64,000 nucleotides of DNA from NCBI RefSeq assembly GCF_030369635.1, contig NZ_CP128474.1, positions 3,100,001-3,164,000 on the forward strand, given 5' to 3'. Under the pieces are notes generated by a model, which saw nothing but the letters and a program-made list of their open reading frames with translations, was not told where the DNA came from and did not search any database. Positions within the stretch are counted from its first letter, which is position 1, and every line of letters begins with the position of its first letter. This DNA is from Microbacterium arborescens. GTDB taxonomy: Bacteria; Actinomycetota; Actinomycetes; Actinomycetales; Microbacteriaceae. The position numbers and the translations under genes are program-made. Of the stretch, positions 25,259 through 41,853 are shown one piece after another.

Positions 25259-25263
25259 GACCC

Positions 25264-27640: not shown

Positions 27641-27702
27641 CCTCACGACCGCTGGCGGTGAGCGCCAGGAACGGAGCAGATCCATCGACGCGTCGTGCCA
27701 TC

Positions 27703-28434
27703 TCAGGACTTGGGCGCCTGCCCGGTACCCGGGGCTCTGTCCGATCGTGACACTGGTGCACCGTACTCATCGTCAGCCGCTCGCACCAAGCGATCGCCGT
27801 CCTTCATCGACTCGGTGAGAGCCTTATCTAGCGATCGCGCGAGATGGCGCAGCCGCCTCACGTGTGCGATCCGGTAGATACGCGCGCGGCCCTGAATCTT
27901 ATCGATCTGGAACAGTCGGTAGACCTGGCGGGCGTGGTACTCGCGCCAGACTGCGCACGCATCCGACGCAGACGCGAGGCCCTCAGCATGTGTGGCCCCG
28001 TTCACACCTTTCACAACGATGTCGCGCTGCTGATCGAACTCGTAGAGGGCCTTAGCTAGCTTACCCGTTGTGTAAAACTGCGCCTCGGCGAGGACCGCAC
28101 GCCACTCGTCGGTAAGCAGCTCTACCTGCTTGGATCGCGCTGGGTCGAGCTCGAGCATCACAGTGACAGGACGACCGTCAGCGGCGTCCGCGATCTTTTG
28201 CCCCCGCTGTTGAAGATCCTCGATGAGGTGGTGGGTCGCGATCCCAAGACTCGTGACGACAGCCACAGCTCGGATGCCGAACGCGCGCTCCGACGCTGCC
28301 TCCGCGGCGTTCAGATCGATGAGACGGCTTCGGAGGGCGCTGCGTGCCGCTATCCAGGCGCCGATAGCCACGCCGACGATACCCAGGAGAGCGAGAATCA
28401 ACGGCACGGCGTAGACGGTCAGCGGATCGCTCAT
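27703..28434 (-). CDS. Membrane-anchored protein of unknown function
   Basis: A 243-residue protein with one N-terminal transmembrane helix (VYAVPLILALLGIVGVAIGAW, residues about 7-28) and a largely helical, charged cytoplasmic part (LIEDLQQRGQKIADAADG; YEFDQQRDIVVKGVNG). ATG at 28434 places the helix at the N-terminus; the frame is open further but non-conserved in character. It lies 70 bp after the PIN-domain gene on the same strand, so the two are probably one operon. Family not recognised. Confidence 0.6.
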   Translation of the reverse strand: MSDPLTVYAVPLILALLGIVGVAIGAWIAARSALRSRLIDLNAAEAASERAFGIRAVAVVTSLGIATHHLIEDLQQRGQKIADAADGRPVTVMLELDPARSKQVELLTDEWRAVLAEAQFYTTGKLAKALYEFDQQRDIVVKGVNGATHAEGLASASDACAVWREYHARQVYRLFQIDKIQGRARIYRIAHVRRLRHLARSLDKALTESMKDGDRLVRAADDEYGAPVSRSDRAPGTGQAPKS

Positions 28435-28504
28435 CCCGCCGGCGGGAACCGCCATCAACGAGAGCACGGTCGCGTTCTCCCATCCGACAGGCACGCCTGA
28501 GAGC

Positions 28505-29554
28505 TCATTCGATCCATCGCAGGGTCTCGTCCTCGACCCAGGCGTCATCGCCACCAGGCGCGATCGTTACCTCCGCCTCGAGGGCGACCGTAGAGGTGAA
28601 GTCCACGCCAATCATCGGGTCGGAATAGTCACCTTGCATCCACTCCACTGCCTCGGAGTGTTCCTGGAGGTACTCATCGGTCCGCATGAATCCGGAGATG
28701 GTGATCTCCGCTGTCGCTTCCACCGTTTCCGGCGGAACCCCGCTCGTCGACTCGATGTTGATCGAATCAACAGCAACTACCAGCCCCTCTTCTATCCCGT
28801 ACTTCATCGGCGCCTCGTTCGACGCGTCCACGTAGGCCCAGGTCTTCCCCTCGAAGTCGGCGAGGTGATCGATGACGGCTTGTATCGCGAGGCGTTCCTG
28901 GCGTGTCAGCAACTCACGACGCTCCTCCACCTCAGCGATCGCGTTCTCGAGGCGAGCCACAACTCGCAGTTGCCCTGGGTCGACCCACTTCTCCTCGAGC
29001 TCCTGGATGAGGGAGGGGGCAAGATCGCCGTCTAGGAGGAAGCCACCGTCGGCGCAGATGAACAGAACCTCGTCGTCGTCGTTGAGCGTTTGCATCAGCT
29101 CGACGAGGCCGTGCCAGATGATGGTGTCTCGCAGGCCCACGGTCTGGCCGCCCTTCAGTGAGGTCGGCGCTCTTCGTTCGAGTTCACGCCACACGAGCTC
29201 TTCACTCGATGTCACCGGCCAGGGACACACCTGGCATGCGGAATGCTCGAGCAGCGGCGCCAGCGCCCGGGTTGATGCGTGCTGCACGTTGGTAGACAGC
29301 GCATCCACGGTGGCCATGTAGGCCTCGGTCGGCACGCCGTGCTTTCGCGGGAGGTCGCGGACAGCAGCTTGCAGCCCTCGCACCGTGTCCTGTGCAGACT
29401 CCCTTGCCTGACGCACCGCCTCAGCGACAACAACGGGGGACAGAGCTACCTCGACTTGCCCCGGCAACAGCGCGTTGATCAGCTTGCCGCTCGTCGGGCG
29501 CATCATGAGCAAGTCTGCATGGAAGGCGTTGGTGTCCGGGTAGAGGATCAGCAC
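28505..29554 (-). CDS. PIN-domain nuclease (DUF4935-like) with extra C-terminal domain
   Basis: A 349-residue protein. The N-terminal PIN domain shows LILYPDTNAF (first Asp), SPVVVAEAVRQ (Glu), VGLRDTIIWHGLVELM (Asp) and VLFICADGGFL (last Asp), the four acidic residues that bind metal in PIN ribonucleases, in the arrangement of DUF4935. Residues about 215-349 form a further acidic, beta-rich domain (VEATAEITISGFM, ALEAEVTIAPGG). GTG at 29554 is used since the PIN core starts there. No antitoxin-like small gene adjoins it. Confidence 0.7.
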   Translation of the reverse strand: MLILYPDTNAFHADLLMMRPTSGKLINALLPGQVEVALSPVVVAEAVRQARESAQDTVRGLQAAVRDLPRKHGVPTEAYMATVDALSTNVQHASTRALAPLLEHSACQVCPWPVTSSEELVWRELERRAPTSLKGGQTVGLRDTIIWHGLVELMQTLNDDDEVLFICADGGFLLDGDLAPSLIQELEEKWVDPGQLRVVARLENAIAEVEERRELLTRQERLAIQAVIDHLADFEGKTWAYVDASNEAPMKYGIEEGLVVAVDSINIESTSGVPPETVEATAEITISGFMRTDEYLQEHSEAVEWMQGDYSDPMIGVDFTSTVALEAEVTIAPGGDDAWVEDETLRWIE

Positions 29555-29653
29555 AACGCCAGTATGTCCTCGTCCACGTCGCACGGTTCTGCGCGCCGCG
29601 TCCGTATGTCCAGCTTGTCACCGCCAGGTCGCGAGAAAGCTATCTCAAATAAG

Positions 29654-29675
29654 CTGACATAATCACCATTATCAG
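29654..29675. promoter_or_regulatory. AT-rich divergent region with CTGACATAAT/ATTATCAG dyad
   Basis: The gap between the PIN gene and the recombinase-like gene (29555-29815) is notably AT-rich in its middle. CTGACATAAT (29654-29663) and ATTATCAG (29668-29675) form an imperfect inverted repeat, a possible operator for both divergent units. Confidence 0.35.
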
Positions 29676-29815
29676 ATAAAAAGCCAGGTCAGCAGAGATA
29701 TCCAGCGATCTACTTCTCAGGGTTCCGGGAGCGCGATGCCTCAGCAAGCAGAGGGTCAGCCGATCTCGGATAGGCGGCGTCTCCCGCACCGGCACCAGCT
29801 GGACGGCAATCTACC

Positions 29816-31093
29816 GTGCCGAACCGGTGGGAGGTTGGGACGTCTGCGTACGATCAGTCCGTGAACGAGAAGGACTGGGATGCGCTGGTGCGGGCGTTTT
29901 TGCATCACCGCGCGTATACGCCCTCCACCCGTGAGACTTACCGTTTGGGGCTGCAGACCTTCCGGGAGTGGAGTCTTGAGAGCGAGCTGGAGCCGCTCGA
30001 GGCAACGGCGTCTGACATCCTCGCCTTCCGTGAAGCACTGAACAGACGCGCATTGGCCGCCGCGACGCGTAATACACGTTTGAAGAACGTTCGCAGCTTC
30101 TACGGCTACTTGCATCGCATCGGGCGGATGGACCGTGACCCAACTGCCGAGCTCTCGCTAGTCGAACCTGCACGCGCCATCCGTACGGTCCCAACTCTGG
30201 AAGAGCTCGCCGATCTCTGGGCCGTCGCGGAAGGACGCGAACGCGTAGTAATCGGGTTGCTGGCCTTCTGCAGTCTTCGTCGAGACGAACTACGTGCGGC
30301 GCGGGCCGAAGACCTCCATGACCGCGGAGGCGTCACCGCACTCAGCGTCCCGCAACGCCGCGCTCAGTCAGATATCGGATACGTAGCCGTCCCAGAGCAG
30401 GTCGCCAGCGAGATTCAGAAGCATCTTGATGGCCGTAGAAGTGGCCGCATCCTCGCCCCGGCGCGCCAGAACGACATGGTAGCCACCACCTTTGTCCATC
30501 AGATCGTCAGAGACGTCGCCCGGCGCGCAGGAATGCAAGGAAGGATCACAAGCCTCAGCCTCTCCTACGTTCTGCGGTCGGCAGCAATGGAGAATCGCTT
30601 CTCGTATCTAAGCGTCGTCAGGACTCTTCCCCCTGGAAGTCCAGACACGACAGCCGAGCTACTCCGCACCATCGACCTACCACCGCACGAGCACGCGTCC
30701 ATACGTCTTGGCAAGATGATCGCAGCGCGGGGTTCCGAGCTTGATGAGTTCATTTTGCGATCAGAGACCCTCCTGGCCGATCGCGCACAGCACCCATCGA
30801 GCGCCGTCATGCTGATCGCCGCGACGCTCGAGAGGTCTCTTCGATTCGCCGCCGCCCGGCATGGGATCTCAATCACCAAACGAGACGCGAGTCTGAGCAC
30901 ATACGCTACCCAGCTTCGAGCGCGTGGCGTTCTATCGATCTCGCAGTTGCGCACCGTTGAGCGCATCCTCGACATCAGAAACGACGCGGCACACGGGTGG
31001 TTTGAACGAGTCCTCCGGAAGGACGCGCTCTGGACTCATCATGAGTCAGTTGCGTTGATTCGACATCTCGATGAGGGCCCCCTCGGAACCTAG
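29816..31093 (+). CDS. Catalytically degenerate tyrosine-recombinase-like protein with HEPN-like C-terminus
   Basis: A 425-residue protein. Residues 20-105 are a SAM-like core-binding domain (AYTPSTRETYRLGLQTFREW, NTRLKNVRSFYGYLHRIG). Residues 125-290 align with the recombinase catalytic fold: Arg155 in FCSLRRDEL and Arg254 in SYVLRSAA remain, but the HxLR histidine is Tyr251, the LGH histidine is Pro273 (LPPGSPDTT) and the nucleophile tyrosine position is Leu282 (TTAELLR). Residues 310-425 look like a HEPN or DUF4145-type helical domain with RNDAAHGWF (Arg388-His393, RxxxxH). GTG 29861 is an alternative start. Confidence 0.7.
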   Translation: MPNRWEVGTSAYDQSVNEKDWDALVRAFLHHRAYTPSTRETYRLGLQTFREWSLESELEPLEATASDILAFREALNRRALAAATRNTRLKNVRSFYGYLHRIGRMDRDPTAELSLVEPARAIRTVPTLEELADLWAVAEGRERVVIGLLAFCSLRRDELRAARAEDLHDRGGVTALSVPQRRAQSDIGYVAVPEQVASEIQKHLDGRRSGRILAPARQNDMVATTFVHQIVRDVARRAGMQGRITSLSLSYVLRSAAMENRFSYLSVVRTLPPGSPDTTAELLRTIDLPPHEHASIRLGKMIAARGSELDEFILRSETLLADRAQHPSSAVMLIAATLERSLRFAAARHGISITKRDASLSTYATQLRARGVLSISQLRTVERILDIRNDAAHGWFERVLRKDALWTHHESVALIRHLDEGPLGT

Positions 31094-31132
31094 ACAGCCC
31101 CTACAGTTCAGGTCGCTGCTCGATACTCACTG

Positions 31133-31690
31133 CTACCTCGCGAGAGCGCGACGCACGCTCGACGCACCAACTCCAAGAACACGGCCGATGCTCTCCCAGC
31201 TGTGGCGGTCTGCGCGCAGCTGCTGGGCCGTCGCGATCCGCTCCGGGGTCATCACGCTCGGCCTGCCTCCAACCCTCCCCTGCGCCCGCGCATAGTCGAG
31301 GCCTCGTCGGGTGTTTTCCCTGATCGTGTCGACGCGCAGCTGCGCGAACACGGCCACGATCCCGAACAGGGCGCGGCCCATCGGCGACGTCGTGTCGATC
31401 ATCGGTTCTGTGAGGCTCACGATGTTCACCTGGCGCGCGTCGAGGTCCTGCAGGGTCTCGATCAGGATGCGCTCACTGCCGGCGAGCCGATCGAGCCGGC
31501 GCACCTTGAGGGTGTCCCCCGGCCGAAGGTAGTCGAGACACGCCAGCCACTGCGGCCGGTCGGTGACGCGGCTCGATTCGCCGTGGTCAACGAAGACACG
31601 CTCGCACCCGGCCGCGCGTAGCTCAGCGGCCTGCGCGTCCGGGTTCTGCTCCCGCTTCGAAACCCGGGCGTAACCGACTTCATGTGCCAT
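31133..31690 (-). CDS. Small serine recombinase (resolvase/invertase family)
   Basis: A 185-residue recombinase. GYARVSKREQNPDAQ holds the catalytic serine (Ser12) and the usual DxQ; LKVRRLDRLAGSERILIETL and GRALFGIVAVFAQLRVDTIRENTRRGLDYAR form the catalytic core and long E helix; the C-terminal HTH is TPERIATAQQLRADRHSWESIGRVLGVGASSVRRAL. All key arginines (RRLDRL) are present, so it looks active. It starts exactly at the edge of a res-like region (31687-31823), as tnpR genes do beside their res. A diverged fragment lies at 2324-2443. Confidence 0.93.
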   Translation of the reverse strand: MAHEVGYARVSKREQNPDAQAAELRAAGCERVFVDHGESSRVTDRPQWLACLDYLRPGDTLKVRRLDRLAGSERILIETLQDLDARQVNIVSLTEPMIDTTSPMGRALFGIVAVFAQLRVDTIRENTRRGLDYARAQGRVGGRPSVMTPERIATAQQLRADRHSWESIGRVLGVGASSVRRALAR

Positions 31691-31823
31691 GCCGAAAACG
31701 GTACCGCCGAGGTTCCGGCGCGAAACGGTTTCGACAGGGGGTTTCGGCCTATCGATCGTCGGCGTGTCGCACAGCTGTTCGTCGACGTCGACGAGCCTGC
31801 CAGAAACGATCAGTTTCGGACGA
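31687..31823. other. Res-like site R1 upstream of the serine recombinase
   Basis: The 28-bp dyad at 31796-31823 (GAAACGATCAGTTTCGG, centre AT at 31809-31810) is the putative crossover site. Between it and the recombinase start codon lie GCCGAAAACG (31691-31700), GCCGAGGTTCCGG (31706-31718) and GCGAAACGGTTTCGAC plus GGGTTTCGGCC (31719-31748), i.e. several half-sites in both orientations, as in Tn3-type res regions with sites I, II and III. The rest of 31824-31944 holds nothing else. Confidence 0.6.
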
Positions 31824-31944
31824 TTGTGGGTACATACAAACAGAGGGGTGAGTGTCTTGACGGAAAGTTTGGGACGCTCCAGGCCTGACGTGGCATGTAG
31901 AGGGTGAACAGCAGCAAGGCTGACACGGTCGGAAGGACCCTTGT

Positions 31945-32535
31945 ATGAGTGCTCTCGAAGAAGAACTGCGGCGTCTCGACCCTGCGAGGAACCTCAACGA
32001 CGAATCCCTGACGCCGATGGTCTCGAGCGCCTGGAACCACGCGCGCGCGACTGCAGGTAGGCGCGGTGCCCGAAAACGGTGGAAGGTGATTGTCCCCGTC
32101 GGGCTGACGGTGGCGATCGTGTCAACGGGAGCAGCGGTTGCCAGCCCGCTGTGGCTCGGCATCGATGACACGCAGGTCGAAGCGGATATGCAGGTGGCGA
32201 TCAACTACACCACTGTGTCCGGAACAACGGTCGACTGCGTCTGGGCGGTGTATGTCGGAGGAGCAGACCGCACGAGCCGAGACGAGCGTGTGGCGGAAGC
32301 TTTGTCCTCGACTAACTGGGACGGCGTTGGTCAGGAGATCTACGATCAGGCAACCGCGAACCCCGTGGCACCCCAATCTGGCGAGACCTGGACGAACGAC
32401 ACATCCGAGACACGTGACGCGATCTCCTTCAAGATCGCAATCCTTCCCGTGATCGAGCGTCGCCTGCCACCAGACCTCCAAGGAGTCGCAAGCCAGTGGG
32501 GTAGCACCGACACGTGCAACGGCCCCTTCCGGTGA
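31945..32535 (+). CDS. Single-pass membrane protein, likely anti-sigma partner
   Basis: A 196-residue protein: a cytoplasmic N-terminus (SALEEELRRLDPARNLND), one transmembrane helix (WKVIVPVGLTVAIVSTGAAVAS, about residues 46-68) and an extracytoplasmic domain with cysteines (VDCVWAVYVGG, DTCNGPF). Its stop overlaps the start of an ECF-type sigma gene, so a sensor or anti-sigma role is likely; a zinc-type HxxxCxxC motif is not present. Family otherwise not recognised. Confidence 0.65.
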   Translation: MSALEEELRRLDPARNLNDESLTPMVSSAWNHARATAGRRGARKRWKVIVPVGLTVAIVSTGAAVASPLWLGIDDTQVEADMQVAINYTTVSGTTVDCVWAVYVGGADRTSRDERVAEALSSTNWDGVGQEIYDQATANPVAPQSGETWTNDTSETRDAISFKIAILPVIERRLPPDLQGVASQWGSTDTCNGPFR

Positions 32536-33130
32536 TGACCGTCAACGACCAAACCCCTGAGGACCGTGCGACAACCGTCGTCACATCCAACGGCGAAGAC
32601 CTCCTTCGCTACCTCGCACGCCGCGCCCCACCGAGGCCCGAGACATGCTCAACGAGACACTGGCCATCATCTGGGAACGTCGCACCCGCATACCTCGCGA
32701 TCAGCTCGAAGCACGAATGTGGAGCTTCGGTATCGCCCGCAACATCCTGCGCAGACACCGACGCCACCACTCCAGAACAGAACAAGCCCTACACTCGGTC
32801 CATGTTCAGGACCTGCTGACCGACATCCGCCAGAGCGACCCGGCACAGATCGGGGAGACCAACGAAAGAGACAACCAAGTGTGGGCGGCGCTTCAAGAGC
32901 TCCGGCCGACCGAACGCGAACTCGTCATGCTCGTGCACTGGGACAACCTCACACTGGCTGACGCAGCGACACTCCTCAGCATCAACCCCTCCACCGCACG
33001 AACCCGATACGCGCGAGCAAAACAGCGTCTCGCCATTCGATTAGCGACCAACGAGCAAGCCCGCAGCGGCCGCGCAGGCTCAGAGTCCATGGGCACCATG
33101 CCGAAAACGTCGACCGAAACCTCGTTTTGA
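32535..33130 (+). pseudogene. ECF-type RNA polymerase sigma factor with a one-base frameshift
   Basis: ATG at 32535 overlaps the previous stop. The first frame reads TVNDQTPEDRATT...EDLLRYLARRAP; the homologous continuation, EARDMLNETLAIIWERRTRIP...MWSFGIARNIL (region 2) and ELRPTERELVMLVHWDNLTLADAATLLSINPSTARTRYARAKQRL (region 4), is in the -1 frame. The switch falls at the C4 run 32626-32629; one more base there would restore the frame. The second frame alone (ATG 32645, 161 residues) lacks the start of region 2. The 3' end reads into the res-like copy R2. Sequencing error, true loss or frameshifting cannot be told apart here. Confidence 0.7.
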
Positions 33131-33198
33131 ACGACCTATCCGGCACTATCCAGACGGGCCCTGTGCGTGAACCGCCGAAAACGATCGGTTTCGCACCG
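33094..33198. other. Res-like site R2
   Basis: The dyad 33171-33198 (GAAAACGATCGGTTTCGC, centre AT at 33184-33185) has accessory half-sites to its left: GCCGAAAACG at 33098-33107, ACCGAAACC at 33111-33119 and inverted TCGTTTTG. The 14-mer CCATGCCGAAAACG (33094-33107) is identical to that at the recombinase start (31687-31700). Same orientation as R1. Confidence 0.6.
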
Positions 33199-33244
33199 TG
33201 GGCCGGAGCAGTTCGATGTCGGACCTCCCGAGCATCATAATCTT

Positions 33245-33805
33245 ATGACCACTCATCGCACCTGGCGCGGATGCGTCTTCATCGGAACGAGCCTGGACGG
33301 CTACATCGCGAAGCCTGACGGTGATCTGTCCTGGCTGACGACGCCCGAACCTCGTCAACATTCGACCGACAAGGGAGCGAACCCCGCCCTCGTTTGGGAA
33401 TCGTTCTTCCCGAATATCGACACCCTGGTCATGGGGCGCACCACCTACGAGACCGTCCTCAGATTCGATGTGTGGCCCTTCGAGGGCAAACGCGTCATCG
33501 TCCTCAGTTCGACGCTCGACGCCTCCGACAGAGCAGATATCGCCCGATCCCTGGACGAGGTCGTGGCGCTCCTCACGGAGAGCGACGCTGAGCGCGTCTA
33601 CGTCGATGGGGGGCAAACAATCCAGGCCTTCATCTCTCGCGGCCTTATCGATGAACTCACCGTCTCGATCGCCCCGATTCTTCTCGGCCGGGGAACTCGA
33701 CTGTTCGGCGAACTGGACCGTGACGTCCTCCTGACCCTCCGCGGACACCACTCGACCGAAAGCGACGGGCTCGTGCGCATCACCTACGACGTCACGACAC
33801 GCTGA
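33245..33805 (+). CDS. Dihydrofolate reductase / RibD C-terminal family protein
   Basis: A 186-residue protein with the RibD_C/DHFR-like fold: FIGTSLDGYIAKPDGDLSWL at the N-terminus, NIDTLVMGRTTYETVL, KRVIVLSST, VYVDGGQTIQAFISRGLIDELTVSIAPILLGRGTRLF. It is an NADPH-dependent reductase of unknown substrate; true folate function is not implied. It is flanked on both sides by dyads (33171-33198 and 33803-33830), so it looks like a one-gene module. Confidence 0.85.
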   Translation: MTTHRTWRGCVFIGTSLDGYIAKPDGDLSWLTTPEPRQHSTDKGANPALVWESFFPNIDTLVMGRTTYETVLRFDVWPFEGKRVIVLSSTLDASDRADIARSLDEVVALLTESDAERVYVDGGQTIQAFISRGLIDELTVSIAPILLGRGTRLFGELDRDVLLTLRGHHSTESDGLVRITYDVTTR

Positions 33806-33830
33806 CGCAAAACCGATCGTTTACGGTCAG
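33803..33830. other. Crossover-like dyad (site D)
   Basis: 28-bp dyad with core AAAACCGATCGTTTACGG, centre AT at 33816-33817; the left arm starts at the stop codon of the DHFR-like gene (TGA, 33803-33805). No clear accessory half-sites at the distance seen in R2 and R3. Confidence 0.45.
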
Positions 33831-34341
33831 CAGATGCGGCGCCGTGGACGCCTGTCGAATCGAAGGCAACGGTCAGTACCGCCATCGAGACGTCTAGTCG
33901 TGATCGCTGGTTGCGTCGCGATGCAAGCGGTCTGAGCTTCCGGAGGGTCTCTGTGCCAGGTACTCCTGGAGGCGCGCGCCTTCAAAATGCTGGGCAGCGC
34001 GGACAGCGCTCCGGTTCGCCGCGGACTCGTCGGGTCACGAGCCGGCCGGAGCGAAACCGACCCCCGAAAGCTGGTGTCGATACGCACCGCGCTTATGACG
34101 GCCCGCTCACAGGGCGCCTGGCGGCGTCCCGCACTCGACCGTTCACGGCTCCTGAGTGCGACTACGCACCCGTTCGCGTGTCAGCACTGCTTGAAACGAC
34201 ACCCGCGAGCAGGTAGCAGATGGACGGACACCCCCAGCAGCCACATCGGTATCCCAGCGCGTCTGAACCCGTAGGCGCATTCGATAACTCAACGGCGACT
34301 CGTATGGCAGGCATCGGCTCATGGTGGCCGAGCGCCGAGGT
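33831..34341. other. Island segment without a supported gene
   Basis: About 510 bp. Short open frames exist on both strands (for example 33911-34216 plus, 33827-34087 minus), but none has a recognisable motif, a good ribosome site or protein-like composition. It may be the remains of a lost module. Confidence 0.4.
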
Positions 34342-35376
34342 TTATGGGGTGGCGAGAATGGCCGCGGACAGCCATTTGCCGAAGTCTCCGAAAGCGAGCT
34401 CGTCGCCTTCGCTCCGACCTCGACCAGCAGCGTTGAGGAGGTCCGCATCCGGGTGGGTCTGACCGTTGATGATCGATACCAGTTCGAGGTAGCGTCCTTC
34501 GGTCGCGTTGTAGTCCGCGTCCTGTAGTGCCCCAATGATGATGGTGTCGAGTTCGCGGTAGCGAGCGGCAAGCCGTTGCCGGAGGTCGTCGTCGGCCGCG
34601 ACTCCGAAGGCGTCCGCAGTCTGTTCGACGAGCCGCGCGGCGAGGGCGATCACGTGCGCGTCATCAGCGGCAAAACCAGCGCGATGAGCGGCGAGTAGCT
34701 GCGGCGTCACCTCGTTTCCCATCGTGGCGATGAATTCCTGTACGTGCGGCGCAGAGATCGTCGACCCGGGGAATTCCGCGTACGTCTCGCGCAGGTAGGT
34801 GCCCGTGGCCGCCCGGAATGTCGTGTCGCGGAGCAACTCGGCAAGAGTGACCCATGCATCGAGCTGTTCCGGTGTGGGATCGGATGGCAGTTGCGGCCGG
34901 ACACCGAGGACTCGGTTGACCAGCTCAACCGGAAGCCCAGCCGAGACCTCGTCGATGAACTCGTCGACCAGCCGTTTCCGCTCAGCATCCGACATCGTCA
35001 CCAGCTTGCGCAGCAGGTTCGCGCGCTCGGCGGTGCCGTCCTGTCGGACGAGGGCGCGGAGTACGGCCCGCTTTGCTTGGAGGTCAGCTGTCCGCTTCTC
35101 GATCGTGTCGAGATGCTCGGCGAGCAGGTCCCGCAGCGTGGTCGCTCCGGCGAGGGCGCGGCGCACCTGGTCGAGACCCGTCTCGAGGTCACGGAGCGTG
35201 CGTACGAACTCGAGTCGAGCGATCGCATCCAGGTCGTAGAGGCGATGACCGCTGTCGGTCGCATCGGTCGGATGAACGATCCCTTCGTCGGCGTAGTAGC
35301 GGATGGCGCTAACGCTGAGTCCGGTGCGGTGTGCGACCTCGCCGATGGAGTAAAGAGTGTCTTCTGTGATGTTCAT
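34342..35376 (-). CDS. MerR family transcriptional regulator with long C-terminal domain
   Basis: A 344-residue MerR protein. The winged HTH is at the N-terminus (YSIGEVAHRTGLSVSAIRYYADEGIV, LYDLDAIARLEFVRTLRDLETGLDQVRRAL), followed by the dimerisation helix and a helical domain of about 230 residues that looks like a ligand-binding region. ATG at 35376 puts NITEDTLYSIGEVA at the start, with GGTGGGG upstream. A 21-bp dyad lies 22 bp before it. No target gene besides itself is evident; the GNAT gene at 35497 is divergent. Confidence 0.85.
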   Translation of the reverse strand: MNITEDTLYSIGEVAHRTGLSVSAIRYYADEGIVHPTDATDSGHRLYDLDAIARLEFVRTLRDLETGLDQVRRALAGATTLRDLLAEHLDTIEKRTADLQAKRAVLRALVRQDGTAERANLLRKLVTMSDAERKRLVDEFIDEVSAGLPVELVNRVLGVRPQLPSDPTPEQLDAWVTLAELLRDTTFRAATGTYLRETYAEFPGSTISAPHVQEFIATMGNEVTPQLLAAHRAGFAADDAHVIALAARLVEQTADAFGVAADDDLRQRLAARYRELDTIIIGALQDADYNATEGRYLELVSIINGQTHPDADLLNAAGRGRSEGDELAFGDFGKWLSAAILATP

Positions 35377-35392
35377 GCCCCCACCTTCCTGC

Positions 35393-35418
35393 CTCAAGTG
35401 GCTTGAGATGCAAGCCAC
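35393..35418. promoter_or_regulatory. MerR-type operator
   Basis: GTGGCTTG (35398-35405) and CAAGCCAC (35411-35418) are perfect 8-bp arms with a 5-bp spacer; an overlapping CTCAAG-TGG-CTTGAG dyad is at 35393-35407. Long dyads of this size upstream of a MerR gene are typical autoregulatory operators. Confidence 0.65.
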
Positions 35419-35496
35419 GCTTCCTCGGTCGATGCGCCCGCAGTTCCGGGCTGCGGGGGCGCGCGACGTCTCATAGTCGGTGGAGATCATGGTGGG

Positions 35497-35949
35497 ATGT
35501 CGATCAATGACTCCGAGCTGACGGGCCGTCGGTTGCACGCGAGTGACTGGCCTTGGATCCAAGAGTGGTTCGGTGATCCTGTGCTCGACACAAGGCTCGG
35601 CCCTCTAGACGAGGAGTGGCTTCGCGAAGCGCTCACGGCCCAGGACGGTGTGCACCTCGTCGTACGCGATCCGACTGGGCATCCGGTCGCGCTTCTCGGA
35701 TGCGTGTGGGATGACTCCGGTGATGCGCATGCCTTCACAGATGTCGCGGTCAATCCCGTGCTCCGCGGTCGCGGGTACGGCCGTCGCGCACTGCGAACGG
35801 CCATGGCCGACCCCGCCCATCCCCCGTGTCGCGGATGGCTCGCGTTCGTTGATCCCGACAACGCCGCAGCCTTCGCCTTCTTCGCGCGTTGCGGATGGCA
35901 GCACGACGGGACCGATGACGGCATGCACCGCTTTACGATCCAGCTCTGA
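35497..35949 (+). CDS. GNAT family N-acetyltransferase
   Basis: A 150-residue acetyltransferase with AHAFTDVAVNPVLRGRGYGRRALRTAM (beta 4 and acetyl-CoA loop RGRGYG) and AFVDPDNAAAFAFFARCGWQ (beta 5/helix). Acceptor unknown. It is divergent from MerR, which could control it through the dyad at 35393-35418. It ends 20 bp before the marR operator region. Confidence 0.8.
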   Translation: MSINDSELTGRRLHASDWPWIQEWFGDPVLDTRLGPLDEEWLREALTAQDGVHLVVRDPTGHPVALLGCVWDDSGDAHAFTDVAVNPVLRGRGYGRRALRTAMADPAHPPCRGWLAFVDPDNAAAFAFFARCGWQHDGTDDGMHRFTIQL

Positions 35950-35968
35950 CTCACTCGCGCAGACTCGG

Positions 35969-36029
35969 CATGCCGTCAACATGTTGACGGCATGACATGT
36001 GGTGATTACGATTTATCGACAACATGTTG
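35969..36029 (+). promoter_or_regulatory. marR promoter with two GTCAACATGTTGAC operators
   Basis: A 26-bp perfect palindrome spans 35969-35994, core GTCAACATGTTGAC. Its right arm contains TTGACG (35984-35989), a -35; TACGAT (36007-36012) lies 17 bp on as -10. A second core, CAACATGTTG (36020-36029), overlaps the expected start of transcription, 15 bp before the marR ATG. Bound repressor would block the promoter twice. Confidence 0.8.
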
Positions 36030-36043
36030 ACGAAAGGTGTTTC

Positions 36044-36616
36044 ATGACATCGCGAGACGGTGATCAAGTGAGCTTGAGCGCGGACTCCCTCGATCTGGCA
36101 CAACAGGCTTACGCGACGCTTCTGTCTGTCGCTAACAAGGTGGAGCGGTTCGCCGACGAGCAGCATGCTGGCCTGACCGGCAAGCAGTACATGGCGATGC
36201 TCGCGGTTCTGCATCTGAAGCCCGAGGACACCTCACTCACGAACATCGCGCACAAGCTCGGCACTTCCAAGCAGAACACTCAACGGATGCTGACGACCAT
36301 CCAGTCCAAGGGCTACGTCGCCATAACCCCCGCCTCGACGGATCGACGCGCGGTGACCGTCAGACTGACCGAGTTCGGCGCGGAGGTGATGGCGCAAAAC
36401 GCCGTCATCGGTTCGGCGTTTCTGTCGACATTGTTCGGCAGTTTCAGCAACGAGGAGATTGAGGCCACCTGGCGCCTTCTGATGAAGCTCCACCGTTTCG
36501 ACGGCGCCGAGTACCAGGGATACGAGGAGGACGTGAGCGACACCTTCGCGGCGAGGTATCCGAACGCAGCCGCGACGATCGGAGCGGACCCGAAGTCTTC
36601 TGAGGTACGAGGATGA
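36044..36616 (+). CDS. MarR family transcriptional regulator
   Basis: A 190-residue MarR protein: winged HTH in GLTGKQYMAMLAVLHLKPEDTSLTNIAHKLGTSKQNTQRMLTTIQSKGYVAITPASTDRRAVTVRLTEFG. ATG at 36044 has AAAGG 6 nt before it. It overlaps the serine hydrolase gene by 4 bp (ATGA). Strong palindromes in its promoter point to autoregulation of the two-gene operon, released by an unknown ligand. Confidence 0.9.
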   Translation: MTSRDGDQVSLSADSLDLAQQAYATLLSVANKVERFADEQHAGLTGKQYMAMLAVLHLKPEDTSLTNIAHKLGTSKQNTQRMLTTIQSKGYVAITPASTDRRAVTVRLTEFGAEVMAQNAVIGSAFLSTLFGSFSNEEIEATWRLLMKLHRFDGAEYQGYEEDVSDTFAARYPNAAATIGADPKSSEVRG

Positions 36617-37644
36617 GCCGCGCAACCCGCACCTTGGGGCCAACGAGCCTGGAGATGATCGCCCGAACGACACGAGGACGGACCGGTATCCAGCTCACCG
36701 TCGGACTTCTTAGTCACGACGACACCGCGACTGTGCGGGTATTCGACTCCCTCGGGGAGCGCGACCCGTGGGGCCACCTCTATGAGATCGGCTCCATCAC
36801 GAAGACGCTCACCGCGTCACTGCTGGCCAAACACGTCGACGAAGGGCGGATGTCGCTGAGCGATCCTCTCGCGCAGCATCTGGAGTGGCTCGATCAGTCC
36901 ACCTACTCTCCTCCTCTCGAGAGGGTCGCCGCTCACGTCGCCGGATACTCGGCGACCGCGCCGCTCACGCGCCTTCAGTACGCGAGGATCATCCTTGACC
37001 TGATCCGCGGTCGGAACCAGAACGTCAACCCGATGGCCGTCAGCGAGGACCGGTTCCGCGACCTCGCGGGAGAGTCGAAGGTCGAGGATCGCGACTACGC
37101 CTGGAAGTACTCGAACCTGGGGTACGCACTCCTTGGTTGCGCGGTGAGCAGCGCTGCCGGCGAGGACTACACCGCGGCCATGACCACCTATCTTCGTGAC
37201 GACCTCAGCCTGCTGAACACCCACGTGGGCACCTCACCTACCCGCAATCTCAACGGGACCACGCGCAAGGGAGACGATTGTGGGAACTGGGACTGGTCGA
37301 CCGCTGACCAGCAGCTCATGCGGCCCGCCGGCGCGATCAGCTCCACCGCTGACGACCTCCTAAAGTACGCGCGCATCTACATCAACGAGCAGCACGGATA
37401 CCTCTCGATGCTCCTCTCGCATCGCGCGAACATCTCCCGGCACGACGACATGGCACTCGGCTGGTGGCTCATGAAGAACGACCATCGCGTCATACATCAC
37501 GGCGGCGGCACAGGAAGCTTCGGCTCCTTCTTGGTCATTGACCTCCGCAGGGGCGCAGCCGCTGTCGTCCTCACAAACCAGCGGCTCGGCCGCGACGCGG
37601 AGAGGCGGCTCGGCCAGTCAGTACTGCAGGATGCCCGCGGCTAA
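36613..37644 (+). CDS. Beta-lactamase family serine hydrolase
   Basis: A 343-residue serine hydrolase of the class C/DD-peptidase fold (PF00144). SITK (about residues 59-62) holds the catalytic Ser-Lys, YSN (in WKYSNLGYALLGC) the Tyr, and HHGGGTGSFGSF the third motif. No signal peptide is visible, so it probably acts in the cytosol as an esterase or peptidase, not as a resistance enzyme. Coupled to marR. The segment between its stop and 37837 contains R3 only. Confidence 0.85.
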   Translation: MSRATRTLGPTSLEMIARTTRGRTGIQLTVGLLSHDDTATVRVFDSLGERDPWGHLYEIGSITKTLTASLLAKHVDEGRMSLSDPLAQHLEWLDQSTYSPPLERVAAHVAGYSATAPLTRLQYARIILDLIRGRNQNVNPMAVSEDRFRDLAGESKVEDRDYAWKYSNLGYALLGCAVSSAAGEDYTAAMTTYLRDDLSLLNTHVGTSPTRNLNGTTRKGDDCGNWDWSTADQQLMRPAGAISSTADDLLKYARIYINEQHGYLSMLLSHRANISRHDDMALGWWLMKNDHRVIHHGGGTGSFGSFLVIDLRRGAAAVVLTNQRLGRDAERRLGQSVLQDARG

Positions 37645-37694
37645 GGATACTGGTTGGGTTCCCGCGCTGGCGCCCCGAGGGTGCACGATCACGC

Positions 37695-37794
37695 GCCCGA
37701 AACGCCCGCCGAAACACGGTTCCAGCCCGCCTCTCCGGAAGGCCTTCTAAAAGACCCCTCACACCGCGGCCCAAAAACGATCGTTATTGGTCCG
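37695..37794. other. Res-like site R3
   Basis: The dyad 37767-37794 (CCAAAAACGATCGTTATTGG, centre AT at 37780-37781) is the most symmetric of the set, 11 of 13 arm positions pairing. Accessory half-sites GCCCGAAACG (37695-37704) and GCCGAAACACGGTTCC (37708-37723) lie to its left, 85 bp from first base to centre against 86 bp in R2. Confidence 0.6.
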
Positions 37795-37837
37795 CGCCAG
37801 TTCCTCGGCCGCCGGTCCCGTAGTCCGGGTCGCGGGC

Positions 37838-38236
37838 CTACTCTCCCCTCGTTTCCGCGCGATCGGCCAGGGTGGCTGTGCCGCGGTGCTTCCGCGTGAC
37901 GGTGCGCCGATCGGCTTCGTCGCGCCACTCGTAGGGCACCCAATCGTCGGCCAGTTCGCGCGGGTTGTGCGCCCAGATCGCGTTGTGAGCTTCGCGCCAT
38001 GCGGATACCGACCCCCACACGGGCACCGGCACGTTGCATTTGTGCCCCTCGCTCCAGTGGCGGGCAACGGTGCTCTTGGGAACGTTGAGAGCTGCAGCAG
38101 TCTCGCGTACGGATAGTCCGGCCTCCCGCGCATCGAACACGGCCATGTGCAGGGTGGTCGCCTCCAACGTGGCAGCAACGCTCGCGCGTTCCCGAGCGAT
38201 TCGGAACGCTTCGGCCGAACTGATGAACTCCGACAT
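37838..38236 (-). CDS. Helix-turn-helix protein
   Basis: A 132-residue protein: SEFISSAEAFRIARERASVAATLEATTLHMAVFDAREAGLSVRETAAALNVPKSTVARHW is a helical region ending in a resolvase/sigma-like HTH; the remainder (WREAHNAIWAHNPRELADDWVPYEW) is unassigned. ATG at 38236 has GGAG 6 nt upstream and leaves a double palindrome (38251-38299) as its operator; a longer frame from 38314 would run through these palindromes. Not otherwise recognised; possibly a small mobile-element regulator. Confidence 0.65.
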   Translation of the reverse strand: MSEFISSAEAFRIARERASVAATLEATTLHMAVFDAREAGLSVRETAAALNVPKSTVARHWSEGHKCNVPVPVWGSVSAWREAHNAIWAHNPRELADDWVPYEWRDEADRRTVTRKHRGTATLADRAETRGE

Positions 38237-38250
38237 GACTTGCTCCACCG

Positions 38251-38299
38251 TGTCCCATCGTGGGACACCTCTACTGTCCCGCGGTGGGACAGTAGAGGT
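38251..38299. promoter_or_regulatory. Two adjacent TGTCCC...GGGACA palindromes
   Basis: TGTCCCA-TCG-TGGGACA lies at 38251-38267. Next to it ACCTCTACTGTCCC (38267-38280) and GGGACAGTAGAGGT (38286-38299) are perfect 14-bp arms around GCGGT. Both share the TGTCCC/GGGACA core and lie 14 bp upstream of the HTH gene, so they are probably its operators. Confidence 0.65.
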
Positions 38300-38406
38300 C
38301 AAGCTGGTCGACATGTGCCCTTGAGGGGTCCCGTAGACATCGTTATTGATCAGCATGCCCTCCGACAGTTCAGCGGGGCCGGAGGCGCCCCCGGGCCCGG
38401 TGAGGC

Positions 38407-38613
38407 TCAGCGGTTCGCCTTGTCCTTCTTGTAGATCGTGATGATGCGAGCCATGACGACTGCGTAGATCGTCAGGACGATCAGACCTCCGACGATCCCC
38501 TCGGTCTCGCCAGCGGCGATCGCTACCCCGAGCATTAAGAGCGCGCCGAGCCCCAGGGCGGCCAAGAGGACACTCGTGAGGATCATCATCGTGTGTGCGG
38601 ATGTTGCGTTCAT
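38407..38613 (-). CDS. Small two-helix membrane protein
   Basis: A 68-residue protein with two transmembrane helices (MMILTSVLLAALGLGALLML and GIVGGLIVLTIYAVVMARII) and a basic tail YKKDKANR. The start is supported by a strong AAGGAG 6 nt before the ATG. Unknown function. The following 38614-38866 is purine-rich on the plus strand, with scattered GGAGCG words, and contains no gene that I can support. Confidence 0.65.
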   Translation of the reverse strand: MNATSAHTMMILTSVLLAALGLGALLMLGVAIAAGETEGIVGGLIVLTIYAVVMARIITIYKKDKANR

Positions 38614-38866
38614 TTCTGTCTCCTTGTCTGGGTGGCTGGTGCGATAGCAGAGAGACCGAAGTGGCGGAGCGGAGTGCGGGGTCGTAGCGGTGAGCGGACT
38701 GAGGAGCGAAGCGACGAGGGAGCATTAAGGAGCGTAGAGCCGGCACGCAGCGACAGAGCGTAGGTATCGTCGCGAAGCACCACGCCATCCAGACAAGGAG
38801 ACGCCGCGCGAATGCCCCGTCGCGCCTGTAGCTGATTCGACCTCAGGGCGAACAAAGCAACGAAGC

Positions 38867-39355
38867 TCACGACGCGATTTGGGCGCGCAGTTGCTCTGAT
38901 GTGACGTTGAGTCGTCGTTTCCCCTTGAGGAAGGGGGCGGGGTCGAGGTGGAGAGCGCGGAGGACGTTCTCGTAGAGGTTCCGCACACGTGGGTTCGCTG
39001 CTCGAGCTGTGACGGTCGCATCGTGCTCAATGAGGAGCCGCAGGACTTCTCGTCGAAACTCGGTCGCCTGACCGCGCACGGCTTCCCCGCGGATCTTGCA
39101 CCGATCCACCCAGTGGTCTGTTGGCACGATCTTCACGCGTCCTCGCCGTTTCTTGAGGGCGAGGGCCAGGTGCGCACGGTCGGTTACGAGCGTTATGGAC
39201 GCAGCCGGTCGCGCAGCGCGGTGGAGGTACATACCGGCAAGCGAGACCGGGATGACGGCGAGGAGGGTCACGCCGGTGACCGCAGGTGCCACGTCGCCAG
39301 CTCGGATGCCTACAGCGATGAGCGCCGCGGCCGCGAGACCGTAAAGCACGAACAC
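38867..39355 (-). CDS. Membrane protein of unknown function, possibly frameshifted at its 5' end
   Basis: A 162-residue frame with two helices (VLYGLAAAALIAVGIRAG, VAPAVTGVTLLAVIPVSLAGMYLH) and a basic C-terminal part (ALKKRRGRVKIVPTDHWVDRCKIRG). The start at GTG 39355 is within apparently coding sequence: the same frame upstream reads DVWSVYGRALRSLWFRKQFVF, and another frame has a plausible N-terminus at 39510 (TQPLNRPTAASDIVSRLRAM...RVLVGGTYG). A one-base change near 39415 would join them, so the gene may be 38867-39510 with a frameshift. Confidence 0.5.
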   Translation of the reverse strand: MFVLYGLAAAALIAVGIRAGDVAPAVTGVTLLAVIPVSLAGMYLHRAARPAASITLVTDRAHLALALKKRRGRVKIVPTDHWVDRCKIRGEAVRGQATEFRREVLRLLIEHDATVTARAANPRVRNLYENVLRALHLDPAPFLKGKRRLNVTSEQLRAQIAS

Positions 39356-39520
39356 GAACTGCTTCCGAAACCAGAGCGACCGGAGCGCTCGACCGTAGAC
39401 GCTCCATACGTCCCGCCGACGAGAACGCGAAGCTCGGGCACGGTTTTCATCGCGCGGAGACGCGACACGATGTCAGATGCTGCTGTGGGCCTATTGAGAG
39501 GTTGAGTCACCGGTTCGGTC

Positions 39521-39712
39521 TCACGCGGGCACGATCACCTGGTTGCGGACCGGTCGGAGGGTTTCGGACGCGGGCCGGTTGTTCCAGTCGCGTGCCCAGA
39601 ACAGCGTGGCGATCTCTTCGTGCTCGAGCTGGTCGGCGAGTCGGAGCTCGTGGTCGCGTTCGATGGTGTCGGCGATCCGGTCGCAGGTCTCACGCGATGC
39701 GCGTCCGCGCCG
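39521..39712 (-). pseudogene. Open frame continuing arsC after its stop codon
   Basis: After the arsC TGA the same frame stays open for 63 codons and reads protein-like sequence (ETCDRIADTIERDHELRLADQLEHEEIATLFWARDWNN...). It has no start codon of its own with a ribosome site. It could be the tail of a lost gene now adjoining arsC, or an ancestral extension cut off by the TGA. Family not recognised. Confidence 0.35.
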
Positions 39713-40114
39713 TCAGATGAGCTCGTCGACCAGCTGGCGGATGCGCTCGCGGATGTCGTCTCGGATCGGGCGGACGGCGTCGATGCCCTGTCCCGCGGGG
39801 TCGTCGAGCTTCCAATCCTCGTAGCGCTTGCCGGGGAAGAACGGGCAGGCATCGCCGCATCCCATCGTGATGACGACGTCGGATGCCTGCACGGCCTCGG
39901 TCGTGAGCACCTTCGGGTGCTCGGCGGTGATGTCGATGCCGAGTTCGGCCATCGCCTCGACGGCGACCGGGTTGATCCGATCGGCGGGCAGGGAACCGGC
40001 CGAACGGACCTCGATGCGGTCACCCGCGATGTCGCGAAGGAATCCCGCGGCCATCTGCGAGCGTCCCGCGTTGTGCACGCAGACGAAGAGAACGGAGGGC
40101 CTGGTGTCGGTCAT
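39713..40114 (-). CDS. arsC: Arsenate reductase / low-molecular-weight phosphatase family protein
   Basis: A 133-residue LMW-PTP-fold protein. The P-loop CVHNAGRS (residues about 12-19, CX5R) and the later DWKLDDPAG with the general acid Asp are typical; VITMGCGDACPFFPGKRY carries the further cysteines used by thiol-linked arsenate reductases of actinobacteria (mycothiol type). No ars operator, acr3 or arsR gene is next to it, so arsenic resistance is inferred from family alone. Confidence 0.8.
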   Translation of the reverse strand: MTDTRPSVLFVCVHNAGRSQMAAGFLRDIAGDRIEVRSAGSLPADRINPVAVEAMAELGIDITAEHPKVLTTEAVQASDVVITMGCGDACPFFPGKRYEDWKLDDPAGQGIDAVRPIRDDIRERIRQLVDELI

Positions 40115-40170
40115 AGTGCCTCTACTCTCGCGCATCTGCGGCGCGACGGCTGCTTTGGGAGGATGAGAAC

Positions 40171-40827
40171 ATGCACGACGCCGCCCCCATCGACCTCGAG
40201 ACCTGGCCGCGACGGCGGCACTTCGAGCACTACCTCCGCACCGTTCGCTGCACCTACTCGATGACGGTCGAGATCGACGTGACGGACTTCGTCGCGGCGG
40301 TGCGCGCCTCCGGGCGTCGCACCTACATCGCGCAAGTCTGGGCGATCGCGTCGATCGTCAACCGTCACCCGGAGTTCCGCATGACGCTCACCGCCGACGG
40401 CGCCCCCGCGGTGTGGCCGGAGGTCCACCCGTCGTTCACGATCTTCCACCCCGAGACCGAGACGTTCTCGAGCGTCTCGGCGGCCTTCGACCGCGACTTC
40501 GCCGCCTTCCACGATGCCGCGGCCCGGGTGATCGCCGATCACGCCGGCAGCACCGAGCTCTTCCCGCAGGGTCCACCGCCGCCGAACAGCTTCGACGTGT
40601 CGAGCCTGCCGTGGACCGACTTCACCGGGTTCAATCTGAACGTCGAGGGCGGCGGGGGCCACCTCGCTCCGATCTTCACGCTCGGGCGCTACGTCGAGCG
40701 TGACGGACGGATGCTGCTGCCTATGGCCGTGCAGGTGCACCACGCCGCGGCCGACGGCTTCCACACCGCTCGGCTCGTCAACGACCTGCGCCGGCTCTTC
40801 GCCGACGTCGCCTGGCTCGCGGCATGA
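40171..40827 (+). CDS. CatA-like chloramphenicol acetyltransferase family protein
   Basis: A 218-residue protein of the trimeric CAT fold. RRRHFEHYLRTVRCTYSMTVEIDVTDF at the start and VQVHHAAADGFHTARLVNDLRRL with the catalytic HHxxxDG motif near residue 191 are present. Length agrees with type A CATs. Chromosomal actinobacterial members often do not confer chloramphenicol resistance. Overlaps the next gene by 4 bp. Confidence 0.85.
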   Translation: MHDAAPIDLETWPRRRHFEHYLRTVRCTYSMTVEIDVTDFVAAVRASGRRTYIAQVWAIASIVNRHPEFRMTLTADGAPAVWPEVHPSFTIFHPETETFSSVSAAFDRDFAAFHDAAARVIADHAGSTELFPQGPPPPNSFDVSSLPWTDFTGFNLNVEGGGGHLAPIFTLGRYVERDGRMLLPMAVQVHHAAADGFHTARLVNDLRRLFADVAWLAA

Positions 40828-41387
40828 GCGCGCTGCGCGAGTGGCTGCGCTCGCAGCCCTCGCTGACGGGCACACCTCCGGCGTTCGACACCGACCGGCT
40901 CCCCGCATCGCCGGTGACGCTGTTCGAGGAGTGGATCCACCGGGCAGCCGCCGCGGGGGTCACCGAGCCCCACGCCGCGACCCTCGCGACGGTCGACGCC
41001 GACGGCATCCCCGACGCCCGCACACTGATCGTCAAAGACGTCGACGACCGCGGCTGGGCGTTCGCGAGCACACGGTCATCCGCGAAGGGCGGGCAGCTGG
41101 AAGCGCAGCCCGCAGCAGCTCTGGCGTTCTGGTGGCAGCCGGTCATGCGGGCCGTGCGCGTGCGCGGGCCGATCCGCGAGGCCAGCGCCGAGGACACCGC
41201 CGCAGATCTGGCCGCTCGGTCCGAGGCGGCGCGCCGGGATGTCGCCGAGGGCGACTGGGCACTCTGGCGCATCGAGGCGACCAGGGTGGAATTCTGGCAG
41301 GGCTCGCTCGATCGGCGTCACATCCGCGTCGTCTACGAGCGCGCGGGGACGGGTTGGCGGCACACGCTCCTCGGAGGTGCAGTATGA
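40824..41387 (+). CDS. Pyridoxamine 5'-phosphate oxidase family protein
   Basis: A 187-residue flavin-binding split-barrel protein: EPHAATLATVDADGIPDARTLIVKDVDDRGWAFASTRSSAKGGQLEAQPAAALAFWW follows the PdxH/PhzG pattern (ARTLIVK for FMN binding, SAKGGQL). It is shorter than PdxH and lacks the full C-terminal RxL motif, so it may be an FMN enzyme other than true PNPOx. Middle gene of a coupled three-gene operon. Confidence 0.8.
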   Translation: MSALREWLRSQPSLTGTPPAFDTDRLPASPVTLFEEWIHRAAAAGVTEPHAATLATVDADGIPDARTLIVKDVDDRGWAFASTRSSAKGGQLEAQPAAALAFWWQPVMRAVRVRGPIREASAEDTAADLAARSEAARRDVAEGDWALWRIEATRVEFWQGSLDRRHIRVVYERAGTGWRHTLLGGAV

Positions 41388-41791
41388 CCGTCCACTACTC
41401 TTTCGCCCCGCCCACGGCCGCCGAGTTCGCGACGCTCTACGCCGAGACGGGCTGGGCCGAGTGGTCGCTCGAAACCTTCGAACGGGCCCTCGCGGGGAGC
41501 TGGGTCGTGTGCACGGCGCGTGACGGCGACGGGCACCTGATCGGCCTCGGGCGCCTGATCAGCGACGGCGCGCTGCACGCGTTCGTGACCGAGATGATCG
41601 TGGCGACGGCAGCGCGAGGCAGCGGCATCGGGAGTGAGATCCTGCGGATGCTCGTCGCCGAGTCGCGACGGCGCGGCGTACACGACATCCAGCTCTTCGC
41701 CGCGCGCGGCCGGGCCGCGTTCTACGAGCGCCACGGCTTCGCTCCCCGCGCGGCCGAGGGCCCGGGCATGGACATCGTCGCCGAGCGCTGA
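41384..41791 (+). CDS. GNAT family N-acetyltransferase
   Basis: A 135-residue acetyltransferase: GRLISDGALHAFVTEMIVATAARGSGIGSEILRMLVAES (acetyl-CoA loop RGSGIG) and IQLFAARGRAAFYERHGFAPR. The order of these motifs is that of the small YjcF/AttT-type GNATs. ATGA overlap with the preceding gene. Acceptor unknown. Confidence 0.85.
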   Translation: MTVHYSFAPPTAAEFATLYAETGWAEWSLETFERALAGSWVVCTARDGDGHLIGLGRLISDGALHAFVTEMIVATAARGSGIGSEILRMLVAESRRRGVHDIQLFAARGRAAFYERHGFAPRAAEGPGMDIVAER

Positions 41792-41853
41792 CCCGTGACA
41801 CCCTGCACGCGACGCCCTCGCACGCGGCATCCCGACTGGCCATACTGACGGGC

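Follow-up and report, generated by a model that had tools for sequence, protein, structure and literature searches.

The window, as we call the whole 64,000-nucleotide stretch of DNA analysed here (G000:C1:3100001-3164000), belongs to a 3.37-Mb, one-contig genome of Microbacterium arborescens. It contains the gene of a small serine recombinase of the resolvase/invertase family, a conserved site upstream of that gene, and three gene modules, hereafter cassettes, divided by short dyads with an AT centre (Table 1). The recombinase has an intact reading frame and consists of a resolvase domain with a short C-terminal part, with no integrase domain in the Pfam scan; its nearest solved structures are the Gin invertase 4m6f (E 1.6e-29) and gamma-delta resolvase (e.g. 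1gdt, E 1.2e-13), and the YARVS motif is present. Against the NCBIfam CcrB model it scored 25.9 bits, where the cut-off is 900, and it is not a large serine recombinase. The GC content of the cassettes is 0.615, 0.616 and 0.638, against 0.70-0.71 elsewhere in the window. It is very likely that what lies here is an array organised like an integron and built on a plasmid-type serine resolvase.

An earlier note on this DNA had placed four 28-bp dyads at 31796-31823, 33171-33198, 33803-33830 and 37767-37794, and all four are found at those coordinates, scoring 16, 18, 16 and 17 of 20 against the consensus CCGAAAACGATCGTTTTCGG. The dyads are thus present, but their symmetry across 28 bp is uneven (7, 8, 6 and 12 of 14 pairs); the conserved part, derived from 106 seed sites in 32 array regions, spans about 22-24 bp and has the form GCCGAAAACGATCGTTTTCGGC, with an AT centre set in the palindrome CGATCG and with information that declines more than 12 bases from the centre. 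Five dyads of the window score 16-18 of 20, and 20 dinucleotide shuffles of the window contained no position at 16 or above and a mean of 0.05 at score 15. The 8-mer core ACGATCGT, as proposed in the same note, is enriched only mildly (7 in the window against 2.66 expected, with 3 of 100 shuffles as high), so it is the longer dyad that carries the signal; the bare 8-mer was rejected as a site marker because it is too weak.

The source genome holds six places that match AAACGATCGTTT with at most one mismatch, five of them within the window, and a backward-read control gave none. Among 149 genomes of the genus Microbacterium, taken one per species so that sharing between them is sharing between species, CGAAAACGATCGTTTTCG with at most two mismatches was found in 64, often clustered or in arrays, against 1 of 149 in the backward control. 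The dyad thins out beyond the genus: in samples scanned with differing patterns and mismatch limits, it was found in 21 of 249 genomes of the family (22-mer, 3 mismatches; 19/245 without the genus) and in 12 of 248 of the order (20-mer, 2 mismatches; 8/238 without the genus). A site matrix trained on the 106 seed sites, with a scan cut-off of 12 bits, recovered 143 sites in the 731 kb of the 32 array regions and none in the reversed sequence. An IMG/VR search for phage carriers of the exact 22-bp pattern, with two free positions, returned no match. Genome G055 carries an array with a variant dyad, CGAAACCGATCGGTTTCG, at L098 7149-18663, in a region that also encodes a recombinase of 76% identity; it is possible that site preference there changed together with the enzyme.

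The better sites carry half-site-like motifs on one flank (over 113 sites such motifs make up 6.4% of bases on the richer flank, against 0.43% on the other and 0.44% in the background, although choosing the richer flank favours the result slightly), and when they are aligned in that orientation many fall into two classes with fixed spacing. Sites of the R class, which stand at the array end and are built like plasmid res sites, show GACACGCCG, two to three copies of GCCGAAAC and a terminal TTTTCGG about 110 bases out, while those of the C class, at cassette ends, show GCCGNAAACG and TTTCGGCAGNNGTTTTCGGC and reach about 86 bases out. When the matrix cut-offs were set to the 99.5 percentile of the scores at 4033 random positions, 23 of the 143 sites were labelled R (two of them also C), 70 C only (two on both sides) and 50 neither. 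No site lies outside the R site in 21 of the 23 R-bearing regions, the exceptions being G033, with one weak site 361 bp outside, and the window, with two sites 27 kb outside. Within R-bearing arrays the C blocks share the orientation of the R site in 54 cases and oppose it in 2, a count that leaves out sites labelled '--'. Folding of four C sites on both strands gave z values from +1.15 to -2.56, three of the eight below -2.3, and no common hairpin was seen. The recombinase gene of the window does not start at the first dyad, as had been claimed; the dyad centre lies 119 bp upstream of the ATG, with a conserved accessory block between. Judged by sequence, the window and its close relatives carry a res-type site, with a crossover dyad and an accessory block upstream of the gene.

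The reading of the intervals as exchangeable cassettes is supported, since module content varies between species while the sites persist, as in G015 and G120. Inter-site segments shorter than 9 kb number 105 (76-8766 bp, median 1828), and 32 between-genome pairs, in 10 families, are shared over their full length at 90% identity and 97% cover, many of them above 99.7% identity; the recurring sizes include 4199, 7516, 2331, 5615 and 5554 bp. The same segment meets different neighbours: the 7516-bp segment stands in the order 4201/7516 in G036, 2331/7516 in G033 and 4199/2331/5615/5554/7516 in G147, and the 2331/5615 of G147 corresponds to 2331/772/763/5615 in G001. Because segments were cut at the site centres, the test of the boundaries rests on junction analysis. 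Over 52 junction pairs (not independent) that share one side, the shared side mismatches in at most 12% per position out to +20, and on the unshared side position -7 differs in 73% and positions -11 to -20 in 52-77%, a pattern that puts the homology switch inside the site core.

The DNA outside the R site of G015 and G120 is 88-92% identical up to the site, and 1.9 kb beyond the last site is 93% identical, yet the two have no full-length cassette in common, only two short matches. G056 has the same chromosomal locus as G015 without any site; relative to it G015 carries an insertion at 6152-25748, and the 1.9 kb at 93% belongs inside this island. In the pairs G078/G099 and G001/G029 the flank is common up to the R site and the arrays are different, with the exceptions of a 4.4-kb stretch related at 83% in G078 and G099 and of 4 kb at 84% that lies outside the array in G001 and recurs in G029. 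A 14.16-kb block is 99.9% identical in G001 and G066; it breaks off at the R-site core, past which the two sequences differ, and its other limit is a contig end. In G148 the first cassette is inverted, according to both alignment and labels, so that one site bears R and C blocks together and the next bears none; the same inversion is indicated in G126 by labels only. No insertion point in a tRNA gene was found in ten fetched loci, including the G015/G120 platform and the empty locus L222.

Of 40 proteins scanned, 33 lie inside arrays, and nine of these matched no Pfam family. Among the remaining 24 are a cadmium transporter and a P-type ATPase, a sulfate permease with MerR, a rhodanese/metallo-hydrolase/TauE set, LGT, a ferric reductase, a second P-type ATPase with DUF305, a nitroreductase, a luciferase-like monooxygenase, a TIR protein, GNAT, an alkyl sulfatase, an aldo/keto reductase, a carbon-nitrogen hydrolase, an AFG1-like ATPase and one ISL3 transposase. 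PADLOC models were matched by one of ten cassette proteins, the TIR protein. Genes on both strands occur in 48 of 98 segments of 300-9000 bp, by a crude gene caller, and a TrwC relaxase gene adjoins the G147 array.

The earlier note had also asked for an enrichment of such dyads near this recombinase family, and one is evident: at 42 of 79 named recombinase loci a dyad lies within 1.6 kb upstream, and at none downstream (71 sites in 1.26 Mb, none in the reversed control). Among the ten closest named relatives the dyad centre is 119-120 bp from the start in nine, and the tenth, L114, shows the accessory block only, near a contig end. Within the genus, seven of 30 loci have a dyad of at least 12 bits no more than 400 bp upstream of the recombinase; in the window, L038, L039, L047 and L057 it lies at 118-119 bp, and in L058 and L059 the genes are interrupted near the start. 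In a tree of 81 of 109 loci (left out were repeated sequences, short matches and rows containing a stop), 12 recombinases including that of the window share one branch (100/95), of which L040 shows the accessory block only; L116, with a dyad, and L041, with a weak one of 11.5 bits, fall just outside it, and close by is a group from Leucobacter whose dyad keeps the same distance, the joining forks being poorly resolved. Some named loci are the same genomes as G handles (e.g. L110 and G116). Counted over whole genomes, the co-occurrence of recombinase and sites was set aside as evidence because it is not clean: a relative at E 1e-15 is present in 34 of 64 site-bearing genomes and in 69 of 149 overall.

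On plasmids the link is uneven. When four plasmid regions are added to the 79 loci, 24 of the 83 have a dyad 0.9-1.6 kb upstream, with fic and/or vbhA between in 23, and 15 of them carry GACACGCCG where R sites do; 18 have a dyad within 200 bp, with GACACGCCG in 15. On the complete plasmid pMspBDGP8A (L187) an R-built site lies 304 bp upstream of the recombinase, and in the plasmids L186 and L188 the dyad is more than 12 kb away. Tn402-like sets (recombinase, Mu-type transposase and AAA ATPase) stand near the fic genes of these last two (L186 13805-16607, L188 9953-12754), and by resemblance they may be res-targeting transposons. The R site and enzyme of the arrays have relatives in plasmid modules, where an R-built site comes first, vbhA/fic genes next and the resolvase last.

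Taken together, the sequences reveal two site classes, an orientation rule, precise gain, loss and flipping of cassettes between species, and a link between enzyme family and dyad. From this association we infer that the window recombinase catalyses the exchange. The R site of about 133 bp before the gene comprises a crossover dyad (site I) and an accessory block reaching to the start codon, and each complete cassette bears a C site of about 100 bp, with the same dyad and a shorter accessory block at fixed spacing. Exchange is placed at site I because homology switches there. In the simplest working, a serine recombinase of this family would cut at the central AT, circular cassettes would insert beside the R site by R x C exchange, and release would follow from C x C or R x C exchange. 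Since the AT centre reads the same on both strands, only the accessory blocks can set the orientation; nearly all cassettes point in one direction, with occasional flips. Circular intermediates, accessory blocks that serve as binding sites, autoregulation and descent from plasmids are presumed parts of this scheme. It is also likely that in Microbacterium, independently of integrons, a plasmid resolvase with its res site gave rise to an attI-like platform, and that a common pool of cassettes with reduced res sites (C) circulates between species; plasmids bearing this type of site and enzyme could carry the cassettes and supply enzyme to arrays whose own has been lost.

Several observations weigh against this scheme. 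Classical resolvases act within one molecule and favour excision, so insertion would need relaxed selectivity. At the presumed equivalent of Arg71, the second catalytic Arg of gamma-delta resolvase, near LDRL, 66 of the 70 sequences read out of the 109 loci (L037-L066, L107-L185) have Gly. No recognised accessory block accompanies 50 of the 143 sites, including 12 of 15 on the second contig of G083, and the R and C matrices were built from the sites that they label. The other 23 of the 30 genus loci have no dyad at 12 bits within 400 bp of the recombinase, 37 of the 79 recombinase loci none within 1.6 kb, and plasmid L189, annotated vbhA-fic-recombinase, none even at 4 bits. Most arrays lack a recombinase beside the R site: the gene adjoins it in six of 23 cases and in two of those, G078 and G099, is interrupted near its start. 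Of 25 genomes with at least three sites, six have a recombinase relative of at least 58% identity, G059 only as fragments. Further segment pairs share parts only, not their full length. For the window itself, no accessory block can be recognised at the dyad that divides cassettes 2 and 3, and the window's three cassettes were not found as cassettes in the 148 other genomes of the genus, so that their exchange is argued by analogy; none of these genomes has a whole relative of the array, pieces of the cassettes occur at other loci, and, of 11 stretches fetched (L191-L201), 10 are without a site and L200 has a weak one of 14.9 bits.

Some of these points would suit arrays that are fossils, built earlier by this enzyme or by plasmid resolvases in trans and now static in most hosts, perhaps including that of the window. 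The few and partly interrupted recombinase genes beside R sites agree with this, as do the one window site in four that lacks an accessory block and G015, whose single-contig genome has 8 sites and no recombinase relative at E 1e-15 or better. Cassettes that are 99.7-100% identical across species with different neighbours point instead to recent movement, and the recombinase frame of the window is intact. We consider a fossil array unlikely, and it would in any case be a version of the explanation given above, not its opposite. Enzyme for arrays without a recombinase could come in trans from plasmids, or many arrays could be relics.

A second explanation would make the serine recombinase a bystander, with cassettes moved by the host tyrosine recombinases XerC/D, which nearly all bacteria possess. 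Around many arrays there is no relative of the recombinase, and the dif modules of Acinetobacter plasmids, as PMC6449649 describes them, are alike in outline, with adaptive genes between short dyads. Yet in nine of the ten nearest named relatives the dyad centre keeps a distance of 119-120 bp to the recombinase start, and in 42 of 79 loci a dyad lies within 1.6 kb upstream, in none within that distance downstream. The palindromic CGATCG centre lacks the asymmetric centre of dif, the two classes of sites with long accessory blocks are res-like, and the cassettes run in one direction (54 to 2), against the alternating order of dif modules. We regard this explanation as very improbable. Least credible is that plasmid or transposon res sites were captured repeatedly and the segments shuffled, not as cassettes, by homologous recombination or Tn3/Tn402-type transposons: recombinase relatives do occur in plasmid vbhA/fic modules, whose sites share the build of R sites, and Tn402-like genes lie near fic in two plasmids, but ten segment families are common full-length between site centres, homology switches within a core of about 12 bp that is too short for homologous recombination, C-type sites are unlike R-type ones, and one transposase (ISL3) among 33 cassette proteins means that none recurs.

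Table 1. Features of the array and of the outlying dyads in the window (positions within the window; '.' for no strand)
Feature	Position	Strand	Basis and remarks
Weak outlying dyad	2441-2462 (scored 2442-2461)	.	15/20, 21.5 bits; cuts recombinase remnant 2132-2446 (-)
Strong outlying dyad	4444-4465 (scored 4445-4464)	.	17/20, 32.9 bits; 27 kb left of array; no accessory block recognised, label '--'
Small serine recombinase, 185 aa, resolvase/invertase family	31133-31690	-	Pfam PF00239, E 2.9e-36; reads away from array
R-type (res-like, attI-equivalent) site, ~133 bp	31691-31823	-	Crossover dyad 31799-31820 and accessory block to recombinase ATG; label R
Cassette 1, 1375 bp, GC 0.615	31810-33184	+	Site centres
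196-aa protein, no Pfam family (cassette 1)	31945-32535	+	Pfam scan
Sigma-70 region 4 protein (cassette 1)	32645-33130	+	Pfam scan
C-type accessory block, distal end of cassette 1	33098-33145	-	Fixed spacing from dyad; label C
Crossover dyad, cassettes 1/2 (C-type)	33174-33195	.	18/20 to consensus; 28.8 bits
Cassette 2, 632 bp, GC 0.616	33185-33816	+	Site centres
RibD_C/DHFR-like reductase (cassette 2)	33245-33805	+	Pfam PF01872, E 7.6e-18
Crossover dyad, cassettes 2/3	33806-33827	.	16/20; 19.4 bits; label '--'
Cassette 3, 3964 bp, GC 0.638	33817-37780	+	Site centres
MerR (cassette 3)	34342-35379	-	Pfam
GNAT (cassette 3)	35497-35949	+	Pfam
MarR (cassette 3)	36044-36616	+	Pfam
Serine hydrolase, PF00144 family (cassette 3)	36613-37644	+	Pfam
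C-type accessory block, distal end of cassette 3	37694-37741	-	Fixed spacing; label C
Last crossover dyad (C-type)	37770-37791	.	17/20; 12/14 dyad pairs over 28 bp

Other features of the window deserve mention. A tyrosine-recombinase-like gene of 425 aa (29816-31093), with weak matches to XerC/XerD and integron integrase models, adjoins the serine recombinase. At the left end, a recombinase remnant (2132-2446, minus strand), 48% identical over query residues 17-123, is cut off at the weak dyad, and at higher positions follow the strong dyad at 4444-4465 and a tRNA-Ser (4729-4819); remnant and dyads are possibly a decayed second array end. At 32514-33130, the sigma-factor frame of cassette 1 matches Pfam in region 4 only, and a frame that overlaps it on the upstream side may contain the remainder, so that a shortened or interrupted gene is possible. 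A perfect 26-bp palindrome, CATGCCGTCAACATGTTGACGGCATG (35969-35994), precedes the MarR gene of cassette 3, with a second copy of its core about 40 bp on, which is likely an operator. Three 63-bp tandem repeats, 94-95% identical, occur within an open reading frame at 26734-26922, and an Rfam scan of 26000-44000 gave no match.

If the array is what we propose, cassette capture evolved more than once, and bacteria have a separate way to collect and trade genes, which would explain how species within a genus exchange genes for metal resistance, sulfur and redox functions and possibly defence. It also raises the question of how a resolvase, normally excising within one molecule, inserts, and the differences between R and C sites make that question testable. 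We know of no system that pairs the small serine resolvase class with cassette arrays. Among the titles and abstracts listed in searches of the open-access literature, subscription papers and preprints being outside their scope, none described a serine-recombinase cassette array, and a passage search of PMC6305408, on Arthrobacter plasmids, gave nothing on such arrays.

The nearest known systems each share part of the organisation. The staphylococcal cassette chromosome elements have serine recombinases too, the Ccr, which integrate gene segments into the chromosome at one site and at times several in a row; Ccr are large serine recombinases, whereas the enzyme here has 185 aa. Plasmid and transposon resolvases with res sites (Tn3/gamma-delta, Sin; vbhA/fic modules) agree in protein family, in the dyad of part of the relatives and in the R-type build. 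Their known job is to resolve dimers or cointegrates, with one res per replicon; the present sites are numerous, fall into two classes and delimit the cassettes of an array. Xer/pdif modules have no dedicated recombinase beside their sites, in contrast to the dyad upstream of the recombinase at 42 of 79 loci. According to PMC6449649, the pdif modules of Acinetobacter plasmids likewise hold adaptive genes between short dyads and are common to species of one genus, on plasmids and chromosomes. The enzyme family and the site are different here, there are two site classes in uniform orientation, and a recombinase adjoins part of the arrays.

The classic example of gene capture by site-specific recombination is the integron, which uses a tyrosine recombinase. 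Integrons share with the array a recombinase gene with an adjacent primary site and a row of cassettes in uniform orientation, every one bearing a site that belongs to a second class. Arrays without a recombinase also have a counterpart in the clusters of attC sites lacking integron integrases (CALINs), as PMC8618304 describes them. The differences lie in the enzyme, a tyrosine integrase there and a serine resolvase (PF00239) here, in the site, here a double-stranded palindromic dyad with accessory blocks, where the folding of four C sites showed no common attC-like hairpin, and in the cassettes, which here often hold several genes on both strands. The function of a resolvase-run cassette array would converge on that of integrons.

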